DNA of 59,316 bases from Bacteroidetes bacterium GWA2_40_15. GTDB taxonomy: Bacteria > Bacteroidota > Bacteroidia > Bacteroidales > VadinHA17. Below the pieces are notes generated by a model. It did no database searches and was not told the DNA's origin. It worked only from the letters and a program-made list of their open reading frames with translations. The stretch lies in assembly GCA_001768195.1 (NCBI GenBank), contig MENI01000040.1, forward strand, positions 1 to 59,316, read 5' to 3'. The first letter of the stretch is position 1; every line of letters begins with the position of its first letter. The position numbers were made by a program, and so were the translations under genes. Below are positions 7,967 through 59,316 of the stretch, one piece after another.

Positions 7967-7967
7967 G

Positions 7968-8051
7968 TGCCCAGAACAAGACTCGAACTTGCACACCCTT
8001 GCGAGCACCAGCCCCTCAAGCTGGCGTGTCTACCAATTTCACCATCTGGGC
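7968..8051 (-). tRNA. tRNA-Leu (anticodon GAG)
   Basis: An 84-base class II tRNA on the minus strand. The acceptor stem GCCCAGA pairs with TCTGGGC, with A as discriminator. The anticodon stem CCAGC/GCTGG encloses TTGAGGG, giving anticodon GAG for CTC/CTT leucine codons. The T loop is TTCGAGT, and there is a long variable arm. CCA is not encoded. A terminator follows immediately. Confidence 0.95.
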
Positions 8052-8055
8052 GGAA

Positions 8056-8190
8056 AGGCGGCTCAAAGGCTCAAAGGCGCAAGGGCGCAAAGGCTCTATT
8101 GCCTGATACCTTAAAATAATTGTAATATATTAAAGAACTTTTTGCTTTCACGCCGTTATGCCCTTGGGCCGTTACGCCGTTACACCGTTT
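8056..8190. repeat. low-complexity spacer between the two tRNA-Leu genes
   Basis: The spacer begins with imperfect repeats of GGCTCAAA and GGCGCAAGG (8056-8095) and ends with GTTACGCCGTT-like repeats (8150-8190). The same CGCCGTT wording recurs at 20735-20768 before trmD. I see no gene here. Confidence 0.6.
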
Positions 8191-8194
8191 TTTG

Positions 8195-8278
8195 TGCCCA
8201 GAACAGGACTCGAACCTGCACATCATTACTGACACTAGTCCCTGAAACTAGCGCGTCTACCAATTTCGCCATCTGGGC
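8195..8278 (-). tRNA. tRNA-Leu (anticodon CAG)
   Basis: An 84-base class II tRNA on the minus strand with the same acceptor stem as its neighbour (GCCCAGA/TCTGGGC). The anticodon stem CTAGT/ACTAG encloses TTCAGGG, giving anticodon CAG for CTG codons. The T loop TTCGAGT is identical. The D arm is nearly identical to that of the GAG gene, and the variable arm differs. The two genes probably arose by duplication. CCA is not encoded. Confidence 0.95.
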
Positions 8279-11970: not shown

Positions 11971-11990
11971 GATATTATCATTAGTATAAT

Positions 11991-12018
11991 GTAGGGCCAT
12001 GCCATGGCATGGCCCTAC
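11991..12018. repeat. perfect 28-bp palindrome, copy 2
   Basis: The half-site is GTAGGGCCATGCC with a perfect complementary arm, 20 bases after copy 1. Every difference from copy 1 is matched on the other arm. Confidence 0.95.
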
Positions 12019-16147: not shown

Positions 16148-16180
16148 GTAGGGACATGCCATGGCATGTCCCTACTTTTT
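16148..16180. terminator. perfect 28-bp palindrome (copy 3) with T run
   Basis: The half-site GTAGGGACATGCC and its exact complement occupy 16148-16175, followed by a run of T, the form of an intrinsic terminator for the rplT operon. It belongs to the same family as 11943 and 11991, with compensated arm changes. The convergent lepB gene ends two bases further on. Confidence 0.85.
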
Positions 16181-16181
16181 T

Positions 16182-17570
16182 CTACCTTACCTTCATAAAC
16201 ATTCTGTTCCACCTGATCCTCCGTATACCCTCGGCTTCCTTGTCAATCGACAGCCAGATAAACTTTGGTTTTCCGACAATGTGATCTTCCGGAACAAATC
16301 CCCAGTATCGTGAGTCTGCCGAATTATGCCGGTTATCTCCCATCATCCAGTAATACCCCATTTTGAAGGTGTAGCTGCTTGCAGGGGATCCGTTAATATA
16401 TATTATGCCTCCGTCAACACGAAGATCATTTTCCTCATATACATCAATGATCCTTTCATAGATGCACAGGTTCGAAGTATCAAGCTGAACTACCGAACCT
16501 TTTGCAGGGAGCCACAACGGACCATAATTGTCTTCATTCCACCTGTAGGCTGAATTATGAGGAAAAATATGCGGGGCATATTCTCCGCTCCTTGCCATCA
16601 CAGGAGATACTTCTGATACATTGGTGAACTTTGATATAGTTTCAGCATTTGCACTTGTAAGAGGAAGAAGATAAGCAGCTCCTGAAATCATTGATTGATC
16701 TGCCTTTGAGATAGATAGTCTCTCAAAAGCTTTAGGATTTATTGTAGTTCCGTTCGTTCTGACCACATATGTAGTTTGCAGTGTGGAATTATCTTCAACC
16801 TGAATCCCGTTAATGTAAACAACTCCTGATATGATAGTTACTGTATCGCCCGGTATACCAATGCATCTTTTCACATAATTATCCCTTCTGTCAACAGGCC
16901 TGTATACAATTTCATGCTGATCCAGAATTTCTTTTCTTGCCTGCCTGATGTAATAACTATCATTTTTTGGCAATGATCCTGAATAGCTATCCCTGCTTTT
17001 AAGGTCACGCGCTGTCCTCCTTACAATCTCATAATAGCTCGTGACCTGCTCATCAACAACAACTGTATCGCCGGCAGGAAAGTTGAAAACTATGGGATCA
17101 TTGTTCCTGACCTCACCCCCGCCTGCAAGTCGCTTATATGGCCAGATAACCAGATTTGACCATGATTTGCTATTGGTCAGAGGCAGGGTATGCTGTGTAA
17201 AAGGAAATGCTATAGGTGTATTTGGCATCCTTGGTCCATAGGCAAGCTTGCTTACAAATAAATGGTCACCTACCAGAAGAGATTTCTCCATCGATGGAGT
17301 TGGAATACGATAGTTCTGAAAGAGAAAAATATTGATAAGGGTCACAGCAATTACTGCAAAGATCAGGGCATCAAGCCATTCAATAAATGCGTTGTTCTTG
17401 CCATGACGCTTTTTCCAGAATGTCCAGTTCACTTTTTCTGTTACATACATGTCAAATATTACGCCTAATCCCAGCAACAGCCAGTAATTTCCAATCCATA
17501 TCACCACGAGGATATAAATCAGGGCAGCAATACCAAAACGGATATACTTTCTTGAAAAGATCTCAGTCAT
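16182..17570 (-). CDS. lepB: signal peptidase I
   Basis: A 462-residue type I leader peptidase anchored by N-terminal membrane segments (residues about 10-50 and 75-95). It has the catalytic Ser in RIPTPSMEKSLLVGDHL (near residue 100), the catalytic Lys region in DNYVKRCIGIPGDTV (near 230), and the C-terminal box MMGDNRHNSADSRYWGFVP (near 410). Bacteroidota members are longer than the E. coli enzyme (324), and this one is typical. I chose the ATG at 17570, giving MTEIFSRKY; an upstream ATG would add nine residues. It follows dapB by 42 bases on the same strand, a pairing that is common in the phylum. Confidence 0.95.
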   Translation of the reverse strand: MTEIFSRKYIRFGIAALIYILVVIWIGNYWLLLGLGVIFDMYVTEKVNWTFWKKRHGKNNAFIEWLDALIFAVIAVTLINIFLFQNYRIPTPSMEKSLLVGDHLFVSKLAYGPRMPNTPIAFPFTQHTLPLTNSKSWSNLVIWPYKRLAGGGEVRNNDPIVFNFPAGDTVVVDEQVTSYYEIVRRTARDLKSRDSYSGSLPKNDSYYIRQARKEILDQHEIVYRPVDRRDNYVKRCIGIPGDTVTIISGVVYINGIQVEDNSTLQTTYVVRTNGTTINPKAFERLSISKADQSMISGAAYLLPLTSANAETISKFTNVSEVSPVMARSGEYAPHIFPHNSAYRWNEDNYGPLWLPAKGSVVQLDTSNLCIYERIIDVYEENDLRVDGGIIYINGSPASSYTFKMGYYWMMGDNRHNSADSRYWGFVPEDHIVGKPKFIWLSIDKEAEGIRRIRWNRMFMKVR

Positions 17571-20334: not shown

Positions 20335-20582
20335 TTACTTTTACCTTCCAGTGAATATAGTATTTCGAGGGCCTCATCTCTGTTCCTGCCGCAGAATTCA
20401 GGCTCAGCCTGGTAATCAGAGCATACCTTTGGCCGCGAAGGATCGCCAAACAGAGCACATTTGTAATCATCAAGCAGATGAATGCATCTGACTCCTGAAG
20501 GCTTTCCATCAGGCATCCCCGGAATAGGTGATGATATCGATATTGCTATACAGCAGGCTCCGCAACCGGGACGACAATCCAT
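20313..20582 (-). CDS. YkgJ-family cysteine-cluster protein
   Basis: An 89-residue protein with eight cysteines. MDCRPGCGACCIA at the start holds the CxxxCxxCC cluster, and further cysteines lie in GVRCIHL, DYKCALF, RPKVCSDY and EFCGR. This is the pattern of the YkgJ / Fe-S cluster-binding domain proteins (CxxCxxCC family) thought to bind iron-sulfur or zinc. I chose the ATG at 20582. A longer frame upstream reads only through the heptanucleotide array and codes for low-complexity repeats. Its 3' end overlaps the amidohydrolase by 22 bases on the opposite strand. The function is unknown. Confidence 0.8.
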   Translation of the reverse strand: MDCRPGCGACCIAISISSPIPGMPDGKPSGVRCIHLLDDYKCALFGDPSRPKVCSDYQAEPEFCGRNRDEALEILYSLEGKSNYLFPEE

Positions 20583-20590
20583 AGTTATAA

Positions 20591-20674
20591 GACAAAAGAC
20601 AAAAGACAAAAGACAAAAGACAAAAGACAAAAGACAAAAGACAAAAGACAAAAGACAAAAGATAAAAGACAAAG
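20591..20674. repeat. heptanucleotide array, 10 perfect GACAAAA copies plus 2 imperfect
   Basis: Ten perfect copies of GACAAAA run from 20591 to 20660, followed by GATAAAA and GACAAAG. The array starts eight bases upstream of the YkgJ-like ATG, where the core promoter or leader would be. It is the same unit as the array at 1689-1758. Confidence 0.95.
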
Positions 20675-20802
20675 GTAGTAAGATAAAAGGCAAATGGCAA
20701 TAGGCAGTTGGCAATTGCCGTGCTATTTCACCGTTACGCCGTTGCGCCCTTGCGCCGTTGCGCCATTGCACCTTTCTTACTACATTTACAAAAACTTATT
20801 CG

Positions 20803-28419: not shown

Positions 28420-29479
28420 ATCAGGAGCACTCCTTCTAATAACTCTCCTCACTGCTTCAGTTACTTTATCAGCAGAAGAGGTAACAAAAGAGTTTCACAA
28501 GGAGTATACACCAGGGCCTGGAACAACCCTGGAAATAAGCAACAGGTATGGCGATGTAGCAATAGCAAGCTGGGATAAGAACCAGATAGTGATTGATGTA
28601 AAGGTAACCGTTGAATTGCCAAGCAGGGAGAGGGCAGAGAAGCTCATAAGCTATATTGATGTACAATTCACTGAAAATGAAAACCTTATTATGGCAAGAA
28701 CTGTTATCGATGATAAATTCAGCTTCTCCGGATGGGGAGGAGATTCAAAAAAATTCAGGATCGATTACAATATTAAAATGCCGGCAGGTACAACACTGAC
28801 CCTTTCAAACAGATATGGCAATACAAAAATCAATGAGCTTAGCGGTCTGGTCAATCTTGATATTAAATATGGCAACCTGACAGCAGGGAAGCTTACCAGG
28901 GGCAATGAAAAACCATGGAACAGCCTGAAGCTGGCATACGGAAAAGGTACTATTGATGAAACAGGATGGATGACCGTTAATATACGATATACAGGGAACC
29001 TTGAGATCAAAAAGAGTACTGCCCTGCTTCTCGACAGCAAATATTCCAAACTTTCGCTGGGAGAAACAAGCTCAGTCGTGGGAGAGAGCAAGTATGATAA
29101 TATCAGAATCGGATCGATCAAAAATCTTGATCTTGACAACGGATATTCAGATGTCAACATAGGCTCATTGGCCACAAAACTCAGATATGAAGGCAGTTAT
29201 GGATCATTCTCCATTGAGAGTATTCCTGCAGAATTCGAATCGATCGACGTTGCAACACGCTATATGGGTGTGAAACTTGGAATTGCAGATAATGCCAGCT
29301 ATGAACTTAATGGTCATGTAAGATACGGAGGATTGAAATACAACGAAGACAACTTTAAATTCAACAGAAGGATAATTGAAAATAACTCTACTGAAATAGC
29401 AGGTGTGGTTGGGAAAGAAGAATCTCCATCAGCTAAGGTCAGAGTTGTTGCATCGTATGGTACGGTAAGGCTGTATTAA
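28391..29479 (+). CDS. DUF4097-family exported beta-repeat protein
   Basis: A 362-residue protein with a signal peptide (cleavage near LSAEE, residue about 29). The body is built of short repeats of the type LEISNRYGDVAI, LTLSNRYGNTKI, LDIKYGNLTAG, LDNGYSDVNIG and VATRYMGVKLG. This is the beta-helix-like pattern of DUF4097 / putative auto-transporter adhesin-head proteins. A start at the Met4 codon (28400) is equally possible. The function is unknown in general; here it is encoded last in a sigma/anti-sigma operon, so it may be the envelope effector or a regulatory target. Confidence 0.82.
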   Translation: MKIMKKFHYKSGALLLITLLTASVTLSAEEVTKEFHKEYTPGPGTTLEISNRYGDVAIASWDKNQIVIDVKVTVELPSRERAEKLISYIDVQFTENENLIMARTVIDDKFSFSGWGGDSKKFRIDYNIKMPAGTTLTLSNRYGNTKINELSGLVNLDIKYGNLTAGKLTRGNEKPWNSLKLAYGKGTIDETGWMTVNIRYTGNLEIKKSTALLLDSKYSKLSLGETSSVVGESKYDNIRIGSIKNLDLDNGYSDVNIGSLATKLRYEGSYGSFSIESIPAEFESIDVATRYMGVKLGIADNASYELNGHVRYGGLKYNEDNFKFNRRIIENNSTEIAGVVGKEESPSAKVRVVASYGTVRLY

Positions 29480-29480
29480 A

Positions 29481-29618
29481 GGCGCAGGGCACAGGGCGCA
29501 GGGCACAGGGCACAGGGCACAGGGCACAGGGCACAGGGCACAGGGCACAGGGCGCAGGGCACAGGGCGCAAGGGCACAGGGCGCAGGGCACAGGGCACAG
29601 GGCGCAGGGCTCAGGGCA
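29481..29618. repeat. heptanucleotide minisatellite, GGGCACA/GGGCGCA units
   Basis: About 19 head-to-tail units of 7 bases, mixing GGGCACA and GGGCGCA, start straight after the DUF4097 stop codon. A shorter version occurs at 26192-26212. It has no coding sense: frames through it give only low-complexity Cys-Ala-Pro-Leu repeats. Confidence 0.95.
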
Positions 29619-29702
29619 AAAGGCATAAAGAAGAATCAGACTCGAATTTCGTCCCCTTCGCCTACTCACCCACTCTCCTCTTCTCCCACTCTCCCACTCT
29701 TT

Positions 29703-34805: not shown

Positions 34806-34914
34806 ACTAAGACAAAAGATAAAAGACAAAAGTAATAAAAAAGGCGGAAGGCGTGAGGCAGGAAGGTTTGGGCTTAGAGTTCCCCTCCTGGGAGGGGCAA
34901 GGGGTGGGTTATTA
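34806..34914. repeat. degenerate GACAAAA array plus GGAGGGG/GGGTGGG element
   Basis: 34806-34832 holds three or four degenerate GACAAAA units just upstream of the mutS2 start. From 34879 a copy of the hairpin element follows: CCCCTCCT, GGGAGGGG, then CAAGGGGTGGGTTATT. Confidence 0.75.
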
Positions 34915-34995
34915 TTAAATAGACATCCCACTAACAAAGTTCTTAAAACATTTTTTATTTAGTTCCTACATTGCTATTTTTAAATCGAAATCAAT

Positions 34996-37839
34996 ATGAT
35001 ACCAAATAACCCCGTTATGAAAAGATCCCTTAATTTCTATTACAGCTTCTCTCTTCTTATTTTAATTCTTATACCTGCCCTGTTAACCGGTCAAAATTTG
35101 CAGCCGATTCCCCTTCCTGAGCATCCGCGTCCTGATTTTCAGCGTGAATTATGGCAGAACCTCAATGGGGTCTGGGATTTCAGGTTCGATCCGGGTAATC
35201 AGGGAGAAAAAGAACAATGGTATAACAAAACGGATAAATTCGATAAGAAAATAGTTGTTCCGTTTCCATGGGGTTCGAAATTATCAGGATTAGAAAACGA
35301 AGCTGAGATCGGATGGTACAGCCGCAATATAGAGATACCATCTGAATGGGATGGCAAGAAAGTATTTATAGTGTTTGGTGCAAGTGACTGGATTACAACT
35401 GTATGGCTCGACGGACAACTCCTTGGTACTTTCAAAGGCGGTTATACTCCATTCGAATTTGATCTTACTCCATATATAAAAAAGGGGCAAAAACAACAAC
35501 TGGCTTTAAGAGTTGACGACTCTCCTTTCCCTTTTAAACTTGAAGGCAAGCAGGGCTACGGACAGGCAAAGGGAATCTGGCAGACTGTTTACCTTGATGC
35601 ACGCGGAGGATCTTTTATTAAAACGATACATTTCACTCCTGATATCGACCTGCAGAAAGTAACTGTTAAAGTAACATCCAGTCAGCCTGCGTCGGCAAAT
35701 ACATCAGTCAGAATTTCATTTCTGAACGGGGACCAGACAAAACCTGAAACCATTCAGAAATTTAAAAAGGGAACCTCAGAGATAAGTTTTCAGATTCTCC
35801 TTGATAAGATGCAGTTATGGGATCTGAATAATCCATTCCTATATTATATTGAAGCATCCATCCTTGAAAAAACGGAAGAAAGCGATAAGGTCAGGAGCTA
35901 CTTTGGAATGCGCAAGATCAGCGTAATACCATTGCCAGGGCTGAATCATCCATATATAGCCCTGAACAATAAACCGGTATATCTTCAGATGTGTCTCGAT
36001 CAATCATATCATCCTGACGGGTTTTATACTTTCCCCTCCGATGAATTCATGAAAGAAGAGATACTCCGTTCAAAACGTATAGGGTTAAATACCAACAGGA
36101 TACATATCAAGGTTGAGATTCCCCGAAAACTTTACTGGGCCGATAAGCTGGGGCTGCTAATCATGGCAGATGTACCAAACTTCTGGGGTGAGCCGGGACC
36201 GGAGGCACAACAGGAACACCTGGTTGCCATGAAAGGAATGATCGAGAGGGATTTTAATCATCCATCGATTTTTCAGTGGGTACTATTCAATGAAACATGG
36301 GGACTTTTTACAGAAAAGACAGGGACCAAAAAGGAAAGATTATACCTGCCTGAGACACAGGCATGGGTAGAAAGTTTATATAAACAGGCAAAGCTTCTTG
36401 ACCCGACCAGACTTGTTGAAGACAATTCACCATGCAATTATGACCATGTTGCAACTGATGTAAACACCTGGCACGTATATATCCCCGGTTACGAATGGAA
36501 GAAACACCTCGATGAAGTGTGTGCGAACACCTATCAGGGTTCAAAATGGAATTTCACCGGAGACCGTGCCCAGGGAGATCAGCCATTATTTAACAGCGAA
36601 TGCGGAAACGTCTGGGGATATACCGGAAGTACAGGAGATGTTGACTGGAGCTGGGATTATCACCTTATGATGAATGAGTTTCGCAGCCATCCGAAAATAT
36701 GCGGCTGGCTCTATACCGAGCATCACGATGTAATAAATGAATGGAACGGATACTACAGGTATGACCGGACAGATAAATATACAGGGCTGGACAATATAGT
36801 CCCGGGGATGACAATTAATGACCTTCACAGCGATATCTACATTGCACCTTCGGGTCCGCTTTGCAGAGAAGTCAGGCCACTTGAAACTGTACAGGTGCCG
36901 TTATTTGCTTCATTCATGACGGATGCCGATCATGGCAGTAATCTAATTGTAAAAACAAATTTATATGGATGGGATCAGAAAGGCAATTATAGAAACTACT
37001 CAAATTCATCACAATCAATATCTTACCAGCCATGGTCCGCAAATGATCTGACTCCGATAACTGTAAGAATGCCTTCAACACAGGGACTTGCAATTTTATC
37101 TGTTGTAACAGAGGATGTATCAGGAAGAGTACTTCACAGAAACTTTATTACCTTTTATATCGGAGAAGGTGAATCTAAAAGGCTGGAAACAATTGATGGT
37201 GATGGCCAAAAAATCAATATTGTCAGGTTTTCCCCTGCAGGTTTCAAATCTCAGAGCTGGAGTCAGAAGCAATGGAATGTATTTGACGGATTAAAGGCAA
37301 ATGGCGCAGGATCAGGCTATTTTGAATACGAAATAGAAATCCCGGATGGAGTTTCAACAGAGAATACAGAAGCTGTTTCGCTGGTCGCGGAACTCTCTGC
37401 AAAACAGCTTTTCGGAAAGGACAGGCAAGATGCTACTCTTCCTGAGGGTGATTATATGCTTGGAAAAGGCACCAATGATCCCAGCCGTAATCCAAATTCA
37501 TACCCCATGACTGACACTAAAAAATTTCCGTCAGTTGTGCGAATAATGGTTGAAGGCGTGTCGACGGGGACCTTTGTCCTTAATGACGATCCTGCAGATC
37601 ATAGCGGAGTATTATCGTGGCTTTCACAACCTCAGAACCGCCAGCTGAATGAAGCCGGTTCTTACGGATATCTGATCAGGGCATCTGTTCCCAGAGAACT
37701 TATAAGCAAAGCATCAGATAGAAAACTCACCATCAGGTTCGAGGTTGATGAATCAGTCCCGGGTGGTCTGGCAATTTACGGAGAGAGATTTGGAAGGTAT
37801 CCTGTTGATCCATCTGTCATTTTCGTTATGAAGAAATAG
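34996..37839 (+). CDS. exported GH2 family glycoside hydrolase (beta-galactosidase-like)
   Basis: A 947-residue enzyme with a signal peptide ending near ALLTGQ. An internal Met8 codon (35017) is the more usual signal start. The N-terminal jelly roll begins PRPDFQRELWQNLNGVWDF and contains FGASDWITTVWLDGQLLGTF. The TIM barrel (residues about 310-620) has the acid/base Glu in FQWVLFNETWGLF near residue 432 and the probable nucleophile Glu in LFNSECGNVWGY near 535. A large beta-rich C-terminal part follows. GH2 members cleave terminal beta-galactosides, beta-glucuronides or beta-mannosides; the substrate cannot be told from the sequence. It stands alone. Confidence 0.88.
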   Translation: MIPNNPVMKRSLNFYYSFSLLILILIPALLTGQNLQPIPLPEHPRPDFQRELWQNLNGVWDFRFDPGNQGEKEQWYNKTDKFDKKIVVPFPWGSKLSGLENEAEIGWYSRNIEIPSEWDGKKVFIVFGASDWITTVWLDGQLLGTFKGGYTPFEFDLTPYIKKGQKQQLALRVDDSPFPFKLEGKQGYGQAKGIWQTVYLDARGGSFIKTIHFTPDIDLQKVTVKVTSSQPASANTSVRISFLNGDQTKPETIQKFKKGTSEISFQILLDKMQLWDLNNPFLYYIEASILEKTEESDKVRSYFGMRKISVIPLPGLNHPYIALNNKPVYLQMCLDQSYHPDGFYTFPSDEFMKEEILRSKRIGLNTNRIHIKVEIPRKLYWADKLGLLIMADVPNFWGEPGPEAQQEHLVAMKGMIERDFNHPSIFQWVLFNETWGLFTEKTGTKKERLYLPETQAWVESLYKQAKLLDPTRLVEDNSPCNYDHVATDVNTWHVYIPGYEWKKHLDEVCANTYQGSKWNFTGDRAQGDQPLFNSECGNVWGYTGSTGDVDWSWDYHLMMNEFRSHPKICGWLYTEHHDVINEWNGYYRYDRTDKYTGLDNIVPGMTINDLHSDIYIAPSGPLCREVRPLETVQVPLFASFMTDADHGSNLIVKTNLYGWDQKGNYRNYSNSSQSISYQPWSANDLTPITVRMPSTQGLAILSVVTEDVSGRVLHRNFITFYIGEGESKRLETIDGDGQKINIVRFSPAGFKSQSWSQKQWNVFDGLKANGAGSGYFEYEIEIPDGVSTENTEAVSLVAELSAKQLFGKDRQDATLPEGDYMLGKGTNDPSRNPNSYPMTDTKKFPSVVRIMVEGVSTGTFVLNDDPADHSGVLSWLSQPQNRQLNEAGSYGYLIRASVPRELISKASDRKLTIRFEVDESVPGGLAIYGERFGRYPVDPSVIFVMKK

Positions 37840-37852
37840 ATTCGGATACTTA

Positions 37853-37930
37853 TTTTCCCCTTCTTAGAGGGTCAAGGGGTGGGTTATGTTTATAAGAAAC
37901 CCACCCCCAACCCCTCCAGGGAGGGGAGCT
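37853..37930. repeat. head-to-head pair of GGAGGGG/GGGTGGG elements
   Basis: One copy in plus sense (37853-37888) and one in minus sense (37898-37930) face each other across about nine bases. GGGGTGGGTTA on the left and AACCCACCCC on the right can pair to form a long hairpin after the GH2 gene. Confidence 0.75.
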
Positions 37931-44528: not shown

Positions 44529-44659
44529 AATCCAATTGTTCAAAGTTTAAAGTTCCAGGTTCAATTCCCCCTTTGAAGAGCCTGTCCCGCCTAAGCAGTA
44601 GGTAAGGGGCATCTCTACCAAATCAAGTGAAGTTTTGAGGAAGGGAATAATGAGAGAAA

Positions 44660-44745
44660 TTTCCCCTCCTTTTGAAGGAGGGGTGGCCGCAGCACAATGA
44701 TAGTAAGTGTATTGCACATTCAGTTTGCGGCCGGGGTGGTTGATT
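44660..44745 (+). repeat. 86-bp structured repeat, subtype B (unit 1, left end)
   Basis: Hairpin 1 is CCCCTCCTT, a TTG loop and AAGGAGGGG. Hairpin 2 is closed by GGCCGCA and TGCGGCC around about 34 bases. The copy ends GGGGTGGTTGATT. It faces the subtype A copy at 44953 across 207 bases. Confidence 0.9.
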
Positions 44746-44748
44746 TGT

Positions 44749-44871
44749 CTATCCGATCGTTTCACTGCTATTATTGAAAATTCTTCTAATCTCATTTTTA
44801 AGTTTTTCAGGTTCTTGGAATACAAATATTTCTTCAACCCTTAATATCATGAATCCAAAGCTCACCTGTAA
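44749..44871 (-). pseudogene. C-terminal remnant of a DUF559 endonuclease-like gene
   Basis: A frame of 40 codons without a start encodes QVSFGFMILRVEEIFVFQEP then EKLKNEIRRIFNNSSE. This follows the C-terminal pattern of DUF559 proteins (LG-F-V-LRF-N-EVF---E-VL-EI), which are small nucleases related in fold to Vsr. It reads from the subtype A repeat towards the subtype B repeat and ends three bases from the B copy. Stop codons in the upstream part show it is broken. Confidence 0.5.
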
Positions 44872-44952
44872 TTATTTTTGTCCTCAGCTTCCTGCAGTTT
44901 ATTTCTGTCTGAAAATGGTGCACTGTCAAGTAAATTAAGTTAAAGTATATTA

Positions 44953-45038
44953 AATCAACCACCCCGGCCGGGAAATAAAATTTGTAAAGACCAGATAATC
45001 AGCAATCCCGGCCACCCCTCCTTCAAAAGGAGGGGAAA
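44953..45038 (-). repeat. 86-bp structured repeat, subtype A (unit 1, right end)
   Basis: This is the same outline as the other copies but in minus sense: AATCAACCACCCC at its left and GGGGAAA at its right. The inner stem is GGCCGGGA with TCCCGGCC. It pairs with the B copy at 44660. Confidence 0.9.
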
Positions 45039-45128
45039 CTTTTACTACTTCCTCCATTTAAAAACACTTTGGTTGATGGCTATTGGGTTAGGGGTGGGTT
45101 GGATCATTATAGTATTTCCGTTTTCAAA

Positions 45129-51086: not shown

Positions 51087-51220
51087 TTTTAATCATAATA
51101 TTCTTTTATGGAAATAACCCGTTAATGAGTTATAAAAAACAAAGTAAAAGTAAACCGTTATGAATATACCAACTGCCGGCGAGCCATGTCTTTATCAACT
51201 ATTTATTAACATACGCTTTA

Positions 51221-51288
51221 TAATTGTTTGTATGTGAAACATGCGCCTGAAAGGACGGCCTCTGTATATTTGATATTATGTTTTTTAT
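51221..51288 (+). repeat. 68-bp direct repeat, left copy
   Basis: This 68-base stretch (beginning TAATTGTTTGTATGTGAAAC) recurs at 51888-51955 with two mismatches. The two copies flank a block with three 86-bp-type repeats and a DUF559 fragment. Confidence 0.95.
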
Positions 51289-51425
51289 GAGTATCGGGAA
51301 TCAAGCATAAAAAACTCATTGATTTTGACTTCGTCGGGTTTTGCAACGGTTCTTCGTTTACACCGACCCCTGGAACATAGCCGTCAAACTGAGAGTAGTA
51401 ATGTAAATACAAAGACTAGAAAAAG

Positions 51426-51511
51426 TTTCCCCTCCTTTTGAAGGAGGGGTGGCCGGGATTGCTGATTATTTGATCTTTACAAGGCTCATTTCCCGGCCGG
51501 GGTGGTTGATT
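51426..51511 (+). repeat. 86-bp structured repeat, subtype A (unit 2, left end)
   Basis: Hairpin 1 is CCCCTCCTT, TTG and AAGGAGGGG. Hairpin 2 is closed by GGCCGGGA and TCCCGGCC. The end is GGGGTGGTTGATT. It faces the subtype B copy at 51670. Confidence 0.92.
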
Positions 51512-51537
51512 TACTGATTCTTGTTACCTTTATTTCT

Positions 51538-51663
51538 ATGCAAAACAAAAACCTCTTCAACAGAAAAGGCCTTAAATCTTTCAGATCATCTCTCAGGAAC
51601 AGGTCCACTTCAGATGAGGCAGCATTATGGGAATTTTTAAAATCAAAAAAAGTATCGATCTGA
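51538..51663 (+). pseudogene. N-terminal remnant of a DUF559 endonuclease-like gene
   Basis: A 41-codon frame begins MQNKNLFNRKGLKSFRSSLR and continues NRSTSDEAALWEFLKSKK. This is the N-terminal pattern of DUF559 proteins (NLF---LK-FR--LR---T--EA-LW--LK-K). It then breaks off: after KKVSI there is a stop, and seven bases on the subtype B repeat starts. Full DUF559 proteins have about 120 residues, so two thirds are missing. It reads from A to B, as in unit 1. Confidence 0.7.
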
Positions 51664-51669
51664 TAAGCA

Positions 51670-51756
51670 AATCAACCACCCCGGCCGCAACCAGTCTTTG
51701 CAATACATTAACTATCAATGTGCTGCGGCCACCCCTCCTTGAAAAAGGAGGGGAAA
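51670..51756 (-). repeat. 87-bp structured repeat, subtype B (unit 2, right end)
   Basis: This is a minus-sense copy with GGCCGCA/TGCGGCC as inner stem and an altered outer loop. It pairs with the A copy at 51426. Confidence 0.9.
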
Positions 51757-51825: not shown

Positions 51826-51887
51826 AGAATCATTTTCAAGCTGGTTGTAATTTTTTATTCATGATTGCCGATAGTCATATAATGTAA

Positions 51888-51955
51888 TAATTGTTTGTAT
51901 GTGAAACATGCGCCTGAAAGGACGGCCTCTGTCTATTTGATATTATGCTTTTTAT
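51888..51955 (+). repeat. 68-bp direct repeat, right copy
   Basis: It differs from 51221-51288 at two positions and has equal length. The start-to-start distance is 667 bases. Apart from these repeats and the DUF559 fragment I see no gene in 51087-52055. Confidence 0.95.
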
Positions 51956-58868: not shown

Positions 58869-58994
58869 GCGACAGGCAGTGGGTAAAAGATAAAAGGTAA
58901 AAGATAAAAGTGAAGTAAGGAAGTTCTCATCGGAGGGGTTAGGGGCATAGCCGTCAACCTAAGAATTGTGCTTTAAAGGAATGTGCTACAAAAG

Positions 58995-59080
58995 TTTCCC
59001 CTCCTTTTGAAGGAGGGGTGGCCGGGAAGATTGATTATCTGATATTTACAAGGTTCATTTCCCGGCCGGGGTGGTTGATT
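58995..59080 (+). repeat. 86-bp structured repeat, subtype A (unit 3, left end)
   Basis: It has the same two hairpins as at 51426: CCCCTCCTT/AAGGAGGGG, then GGCCGGGA/TCCCGGCC, ending GGGGTGGTTGATT. A degenerate AAAAGAT-type heptamer run (58887-58912) and a GGAGGGGTTAGGGGCATAG stretch precede it. Confidence 0.92.
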
Positions 59081-59267
59081 AAATTGATCCTGACAGATAC
59101 ATCTTATGGGTATATTATTAAATACAAAGGTTTGAGGACAAGAATAATATCATTAGACTATGAGTCATAATGTAATAAATTTTGATAACAGCTTTGCGTT
59201 TCATAATTTTCTTTGAAAAAGAGATAAGGAAATTTTAATTATAAAAAATGAATTTACATGACTTAAT
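59081..59267. other. core of repeat unit 3, no gene recognised
   Basis: This is 187 bases of AT-rich sequence between facing A and B repeats. I found no DUF559-like stretch in either sense and no open frame longer than about 30 codons. Confidence 0.5.
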
Positions 59268-59316
59268 AATCAACCACCCCGGCCGCATATTAACTATGCA
59301 ATGTATTAACTATCAT
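59268..59316 (-). repeat. structured repeat, subtype B, cut by window edge (unit 3, right end)
   Basis: It starts AATCAACCACCCCGGCCGCA like the other minus-sense B copies and runs off the window. Confidence 0.85.

Follow-up and report, generated by a model that had tools for sequence, protein, structure and literature searches.

Bacterial genomes commonly contain palindromic repeats for which no mobilising enzyme is known. Among the described systems, REP-RAYT consists of a small nuclease gene located between two inverted palindromic repeats, accompanied by solo and paired copies dispersed elsewhere (PMC2817692), and Y1 subclasses with REPs have been described in Bacteroidetes (PMC6006769). 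Rickettsia palindromic elements (RPEs) are reported as palindromic units of about 150 bp that lie in frame in protein genes (PMC10969869). The homing endonuclease I-Bth0305I reportedly forms dimers on its target, which is nearly 60 bp long (PMC3943268). The DUF559 domain has been mentioned in other settings: a Caulobacter protein containing it has been discussed as an enzyme of Vsr-like repair (PMC12907096), and in Legionella pneumophila DUF559 is described alongside a transposase, within a repeated segment known as a hotspot of recombination (PMC12308824). A literature search, conducted mostly without subscription papers and preprints, gave no link of DUF559 to palindromic repeats, to a mobile element of its own or to a role in mobility.

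The window analysed here is a stretch of 59,316 bp, which represents one contig (C40) of a 4.77-Mb draft genome. It contains three copies of a mobile unit that is about 590 bp long in its complete form, all three being internally deleted and non-autonomous. The repeats termed A and B are the two ends of this unit, and a DUF559 gene is its only gene.

Repeats A and B in the window

A sequence-only reading of the window had described paired A/B repeats at three loci, and these are real (44660-45037, 51427-51756 and 58996-59316, here copies 1, 2 and 3; Table 1). The spacing of 187 bp given for copy 3 was exact, whereas the 207 and 158 bp given for copies 1 and 2 were each too long by 2 bp, the repeats being 205 and 156 bp apart. 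The distinction of subtypes A and B was sound, and a third subtype with a GTCCCGA...TCGGGAC stem is also present. The DUF559 N-terminus noted next to A and the C-terminus-like stretch noted next to B were both confirmed, and the DNA of copy 2 aligns with positions 1-225 and 474-575 of the element at C69.

Table 1 Features of the three deleted copies in the window
Feature	Position	Strand	Remarks
B-type end, left end of deleted copy 1	44660..44746	+	ssDNA fold z -3.9
A-type end, right end of deleted copy 1	44952..45037	-	
DUF559 C-terminal remnant, copy 1	44773..44859	-	62% identity to C4 protein residues 104-132
Enclosing outer element of copy 1, diverged terminal motifs	44610..45084	.	ends by eye, approximate
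A-type end, left end of deleted copy 2	51427..51512	+	two hairpins and GGGGTGGTTGATT inner tail; ssDNA fold z -4.4
B-type end, right end of deleted copy 2	51669..51756	-	
DUF559 N-terminal remnant, copy 2	51502..51654	+	80% identity to C69 protein residues 1-51
Outer terminal motif CATAGCCGTCAACYTAAG, A side only of copy 2	51375..51393	+	3 mismatches
A-type end of copy 3	58996..59080	+	ssDNA fold z -5.6
B-type end of copy 3, truncated by contig end	59268..59316	-	
Core of copy 3, DUF559 3' remnant	59081..59267	.	blastn 2e-8 to full DUF559 core
Outer terminal motif, copy 3	58945..58963	+	exact match

Each A or B repeat starts with (A)AGTTTCCCC and is composed of two hairpins followed by GGGGTGGTTGATT. 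The three repeats that were tested fold better than every shuffle (z -3.9 to -5.6). In hairpin 2, a perfect stem of at least 5 bp was present in 88 of 102 distinct inserts from the loci examined, against a shuffle mean of 0.14, and its pairing is preserved though the letters vary. The inner end GGCCGGGGTGGTTGATT had 122 matches in the genome when up to two mismatches were allowed, against one for the reversed control. With the A and B repeats as queries, 42 and 41 genome matches were obtained, respectively, and a few places were common to both. The A/B pattern was found in 10 of 31 genomes of the genus: 77 times in this genome, 40, 28, 14 and 5 times in four others and once each in five more. 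The five genus genomes without a DUF559 match had no A/B pattern, and the same was true of many genomes that do have DUF559.

Several other repeated features were observed in the window. A direct repeat of 69 bp (97% identity; 51220-51288 and 51887-51955) flanks copy 2 and precedes each of the two divergent genes. Heptamers of the CTTTTGT and AGGGCAC types form tandem arrays at 1668-1775, 20570-20716 and 29458-29640, and a 37-nt stretch with the palindrome CATGCCATGGCATG is present in two inverted copies (11982-12018 and 16148-16184). Two adjacent tRNA-Leu genes (gag, cag) are located on the minus strand at 7967-8278.

The complete unit in the host genome

The sequence-only reading had modelled the window copies as deleted forms of an A-DUF559-B element of about 600 bp, and units of 555-594 bp with this arrangement do exist in the host genome. 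The layout of the unit (about 590 bp) is AAGTTT-(hairpin 1)-T-(hairpin 2)-GGGGTGGTTGATT...DUF559...AATCAACCACCCC-(hairpin 2)-A-(hairpin 1)-AAACTT. Units with an open frame are found at C69, C102 and C121, and at C4 with a variant end; the frame at C102 terminates by running into its own B end, and the units at C104 and C85 are damaged.

Among the 42 facing repeat pairs present in the stretches collected from the genome, 41 combined A with B and one consisted of two B repeats. In 41 of the 42 pairs the core matched a DUF559 core from a different locus, and in none of the 42 did it do so after shuffling; A/B pairs that mostly enclose unrelated sequences had been named beforehand as evidence against the model, and this outcome did not occur. 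Since DUF559 DNA is present in nearly all of these cores and full units exist in the same genome, the copies in the window are internal deletions. One core, at C4:34511, is 1,404 bp long. The direction of reading from A to B, which had been claimed for DUF559, applies to 32 of the 41 matching cores, the other nine being read in the opposite direction.

An inner end of type A, B or C was located on at least one side of 28 of the 32 DUF559 matches in this genome; in full units, the distance from the match to the inner end is about 60 bp on the upstream side and 30-60 bp on the downstream side. Full-length DUF559 genes without A/B flanks had also been named as counter-evidence; this outcome is judged not to have occurred, the four matches without A/B ends having different inverted palindromes on both sides (by eye).

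Evidence for movement

In the related genome G012, two units with 88.7% identity across 588 bp are located in unrelated contexts, and their identity ends exactly at the outer palindromes, AAGTTTCCCC and GGGGAAACTT. To judge from this alignment, the palindrome-bounded unit has evidently moved as a whole in this relative. Pairs of loci with like proteins and like ends were also compared; 62 of 76 pairs were testable, of which 55 lie in unrelated surroundings and seven are orthologous. Like DUF559 proteins with like palindromes thus occur at unrelated sites.

A comparison of empty and filled sites, which had been proposed in the sequence-only reading, was made at copy 1. The flanking genes are 585 bp apart here vs -10 to 238 bp (median 33) in relatives. 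In all 49 of the relatives with both genes listed on one contig, out of 58 searched, the gap is too short for the insert, among the matches listed and with distances estimated from match ends. At the same spot, G015 has a lone CCCACCCCTAACCCC...GGGG repeat, and the outer element of copy 1 splits such a CCCACCCCTAACCCC repeat.

The ratio dN/dS of DUF559 was 0.08-0.37 in the 14 of 20 pairs for which it was computable, so that purifying selection acts on the gene between copies. Broken copies are numerous, and their movement could have had another cause.

Units inside coding genes

All in-frame units come from other genomes, and the copies in the window are not of this type. With Pfam, ten frames were found to combine DUF559 with host domains, namely LeuRS (three), MetH (two), RecG, HsdR, HsdM, an S-subunit-like protein and an M23 peptidase; two further in-frame cases were recognised by eye in LeuRS (L223) and MetH (L238). 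The frames are open across the unit and, in the ten that were scanned, Pfam shows DUF559 and an overlapping sub-cut-off MTES_1575 match between the host domains; a splicing sequence that could host the nuclease was found in none of these ten. In the LeuRS and MetH units that were read, the flanking palindromes are translated in frame on both sides. On comparing the host parts with solved structures, it was found that they nearly meet (chain residues 235 and 237 in LeuRS, 752 and 772 in MetH), the queries holding at least 160 residues at this point. The same insertion site is occupied in three genomes for MetH and in three for LeuRS, which fits homing and also inheritance.

Palindromic flanks of DUF559 genes in other genomes

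Inverted flanks were scored over 300 bp on each side of the gene. Scores above 26 were obtained for 55 of 64 DUF559 genes from this genome and its relatives and for one of the 39 window genes that served as gene-centred controls. The relatives' loci were the better-scoring DUF559 matches, the G020 fragments L184-L187 lying outside the scoring. A same-locus shift control (n = 57, maximum 26) replaced a cross-locus comparison, which is not a null because the loci share repeat families; in the latter, 16 of 65 DUF559 loci were above the 99th percentile (55; maximum 100), one of them (L139) being an artefact of N runs.

In a sample of Bacteroidota, the score exceeded 26 for 11 of 16 standalone DUF559 genes and for 8 of 10 in large frames, with shifted controls reaching up to 23. 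In named genomes, mostly of other phyla, 23 of 33 loci exceeded 26 and 19 exceeded 32, the largest of 62 shifted controls; a second named-genome set, which overlaps with the first (same genomes, some of them Bacteroidota, and three Binatia/Desulfurellaceae loci that are near-identical), gave 25 of 29. Scores of 26 or less were thus found for 9 of 64 genes in the genome and its relatives, 5 of 16 standalone genes of the Bacteroidota sample and 10 of 33 loci from named genomes. The loci left out were 5 of 70 in the cross-locus set (short flanks), 6 of 70 in the 64-gene set, three DUF559 and 5 of 30 GIY-YIG loci in the Bacteroidota sample, 1 of 30 in the set of 29 and 2 of 35 in the set of 33.

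The palindromes differ between DUF559 clades and the layout is unchanged. Protein identity and flank similarity between genomes were correlated (Spearman 0.36; maximum of 500 permutations 0.09), a value partly confounded by shared loci; the comparison of surroundings addresses this point, seven of the 62 like pairs being orthologous. DUF559 genes of Bacteroidota and of other phyla often lie between inverted GC-rich palindromes. The nearest named DUF559 relatives found were Bacteroidales MAGs, which makes a Bacteroidales host likely for the present genome.

GIY-YIG genes (PF01541) were tried as a negative control and were dropped on scoring above 26 in 14 of 25 cases, the window genes taking their place. 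In these small GIY-YIG genes (L252-L281, from genomes of the phylum), about 8 of the 14 high-scoring flanks were of the GTCATTCCGAGCG or CACCCTGAGCTTGTCGAAG type (by eye), and GIY-YIG genes with GTCATTCCGAGCG-type repeats are perhaps a second class of nuclease associated with palindromes. The sole window gene with a score above 26 encodes 947 amino acids (34996-37839) and lies between inverted palindromes of the CCCCTCC...GGAGGGG..GGGGTGGGTT type (34880-34917 and 37883-37929).

The DUF559 protein and the proposed mechanism

The five proteins scanned matched DUF559 (PF04480) with 96.5-110.4 bits against a cut-off of 20.6, and D56, E67, D69 and H73 are invariant across 40 DUF559 proteins. An AlphaFold2 model (pLDDT 87) matches 3hrl and the catalytic domain of the homing endonuclease I-Bth0305I (3r3p; profile E 2.5e-4, Foldseek E 9e-5). 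On the basis of the model, DUF559 is assigned to the PD-(D/E)XK/Vsr-like fold, with I-Bth0305I as the predicted nearest characterised fold.

Host duplications of about 57 bp were observed at three DUF559 loci (L005, L130 and L133), compared with a maximum of 39 in the control (n = 112). At these loci the unit directly follows an FtsX-like permease gene, and the last ~57 bp of the gene are repeated behind the unit; in all, 5 of 70 DUF559 loci are near an FtsX-like permease tail. The link of DUF559 with these duplications is suggestive only, and the closeness of their length to that of the I-Bth0305I target may be a coincidence.

The A-DUF559-B unit is a mobile unit, one of many of its kind, and it probably spreads by DUF559 cutting the DNA and repair copying the unit. 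In such a mechanism, the DUF559 protein would recognise the hairpin ends or target palindromes and would cut DNA, after which repair would copy the unit into the break. Solo and paired ends would be spread in trans, as would deleted copies. If an open-frame unit happened to insert in frame into a loop of a conserved gene that tolerates it, the unit could persist as a translated insertion. Of the mobility claimed in the sequence-only reading, movement of the whole unit is supported by the G012 pair, and DUF559 as the mover of the units is inferred. Many A-B units of this genome lie inside an outer element, which may use another enzyme.

A wider proposal, to which about an even chance is given, is that DUF559 proteins are the mobility enzymes of bacteria-wide selfish elements convergent with RAYT-REP, each clade driving its own GC-rich palindromes. 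These elements would home into the tips of palindromes and into conserved sites of coding sequence; in important genes they would survive as insertions that are translated in frame and not spliced out, and many orphan REP-like repeats would be explained by them. GIY-YIG genes with GTCATTCCGAGCG-type repeats may be a second class.

The outer element and alternative explanations

At many loci the repeat extends outward into an outer element ending in CATAGCCGTCAACYTAAG, which had 108 matches in the genome with up to three mismatches and none in the reversed control. Candidate outer elements span 131-789 bp; in 8 of the 34, one end or both carry 5-6 mismatches, and these candidates may be spurious. 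Direct duplications of 9-10 bp were present in 12 of the 34 and sit in GC-rich repeats, so that the probability of chance occurrence is higher than in random DNA. These duplications often correspond to the tip of a host palindrome, e.g. CCCCAAGGGG or CCTTTGAAGG. The arrangement is interpreted here as a nesting in which repeats have inserted into the tips of other repeats; alternatively, the outer element may be a miniature transposon served by a separate enzyme. The outer CATAGCCGTCAAC-ended element is taken as a second layer carrying the A-B unit, and DUF559 or another enzyme may move this layer.

The combination of terminal inverted repeats with duplications of 9-10 bp is a signature of DDE transposases. 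The outer element shows both, and copies of it at C77 and C89 are without A/B ends or DUF559. All of this would be expected if DUF559 were cargo, i.e. a repair or defence nuclease, and the units were moved in trans by another enzyme such as a DDE transposase acting on the CATAGCCGTCAAC ends. This explanation is considered unlikely, though it deserves to be taken seriously. It does not readily account for the DUF559 genes of other genomes, which share the layout despite quite different palindromes, nor for the tracking of flank similarity by protein similarity or the purifying selection on DUF559 between copies. Moreover, in the MetH and LeuRS units that were read the palindromes lie near host codons, which leaves little room for an outer element.

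If any break could set off homologous recombination between dispersed palindromes, with no need for a dedicated enzyme, this would explain why outer modules have been exchanged and cores flipped. At the locus of copy 1, the estimated gap between the neighbouring genes is zero or less in 18 of the 49 relatives, and no gap was seen in four of the eight that were read as sequence, so that no repeat was present there to recombine with. Together with the occupation of conserved coding sites in LeuRS and MetH, this makes recombination quite improbable as the explanation.

A very improbable alternative is that A and B are REPs of the usual kind, mobilised by a RAYT (Y1/HUH) transposase, and that DUF559 is incidental. 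RAYT-REP has the same layout, a gene between inverted repeats with copies that are solo or paired (PMC2817692), and five Y1 matches are present in the genome; the one at C67 lies within an outer element that also holds a cut hairpin of the A type. However, no A/B inner end (up to two mismatches) was found in the five Y1 loci within 1.5 kb on each side, where the contig allows; other hairpins are close by (by eye), and neither A nor B has a GTAG head. RAYT was accordingly judged unlikely as the mover of A and B, the Y1 gene inside the outer element notwithstanding. The locus at C67 (7895-9253; L108/L314) consists of the outer element with the cut hairpin followed by a segment that contains the Y1 transposase gene and has palindromes of its own, of the form CCCCCGGT..ACCGGGGG.

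Finally, the notion that the palindromes are terminators or structured RNA of a stable Vsr-like DUF559 housekeeping gene duplicated by ordinary recombination, for which the strong hairpins on both sides and the Vsr-like Caulobacter protein (PMC12907096) could be cited, is hardly credible and is contradicted as a full account by the unit ends in G012, which coincide with palindromes at unrelated sites, and by the short neighbour-gene gaps in relatives, and is also at odds with the in-frame units in conserved genes and the DUF559 remnants between repeat ends.

Significance and comparison with known systems

The nesting in an outer element, the occurrence of both core orientations, the presence in other phyla and the units inside coding genes were not foreseen in the sequence-only reading. 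The link between DUF559 and palindromes makes the origin of such repeats directly testable. It would give REP-like elements a second type of enzyme, and it adds a homing-type nuclease unit that is found inside LeuRS and MetH without a splicing domain.

Like MITEs, the units have short, non-autonomous deleted copies with inverted ends, and the short direct duplications of some outer candidates may be a further likeness; unlike in MITEs, the gene of the full copy encodes a nuclease and not a DDE transposase. With RPEs they share the in-frame location of palindromic units in protein genes, whereas RPEs are only about 150 bp long (PMC10969869) and the DUF559 units carry a nuclease gene. The EDxHD homing endonucleases, represented by I-Bth0305I, resemble DUF559 in fold and profile, and a further likeness is that DUF559 units recur across genomes at one site of a conserved gene, as seen for LeuRS and MetH; the DUF559 units differ in having no intron or intein, in possessing their own palindromic ends and in occurring as many non-allelic copies per genome. 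The comparison with REP and RAYT drawn in the earlier reading is apt in architecture, as the small nuclease gene between two inverted palindromic repeats and the dispersed solo and paired copies (PMC2817692) are found in both systems, and in DUF559 units, too, protein similarity goes with repeat similarity. In contrast to REP-RAYT, the enzyme is PD-(D/E)XK/Vsr-like according to the model rather than Y1/HUH, A and B have no GT(A/G)G head, each end is built of two consecutive hairpins, and units are also found in frame in coding genes.
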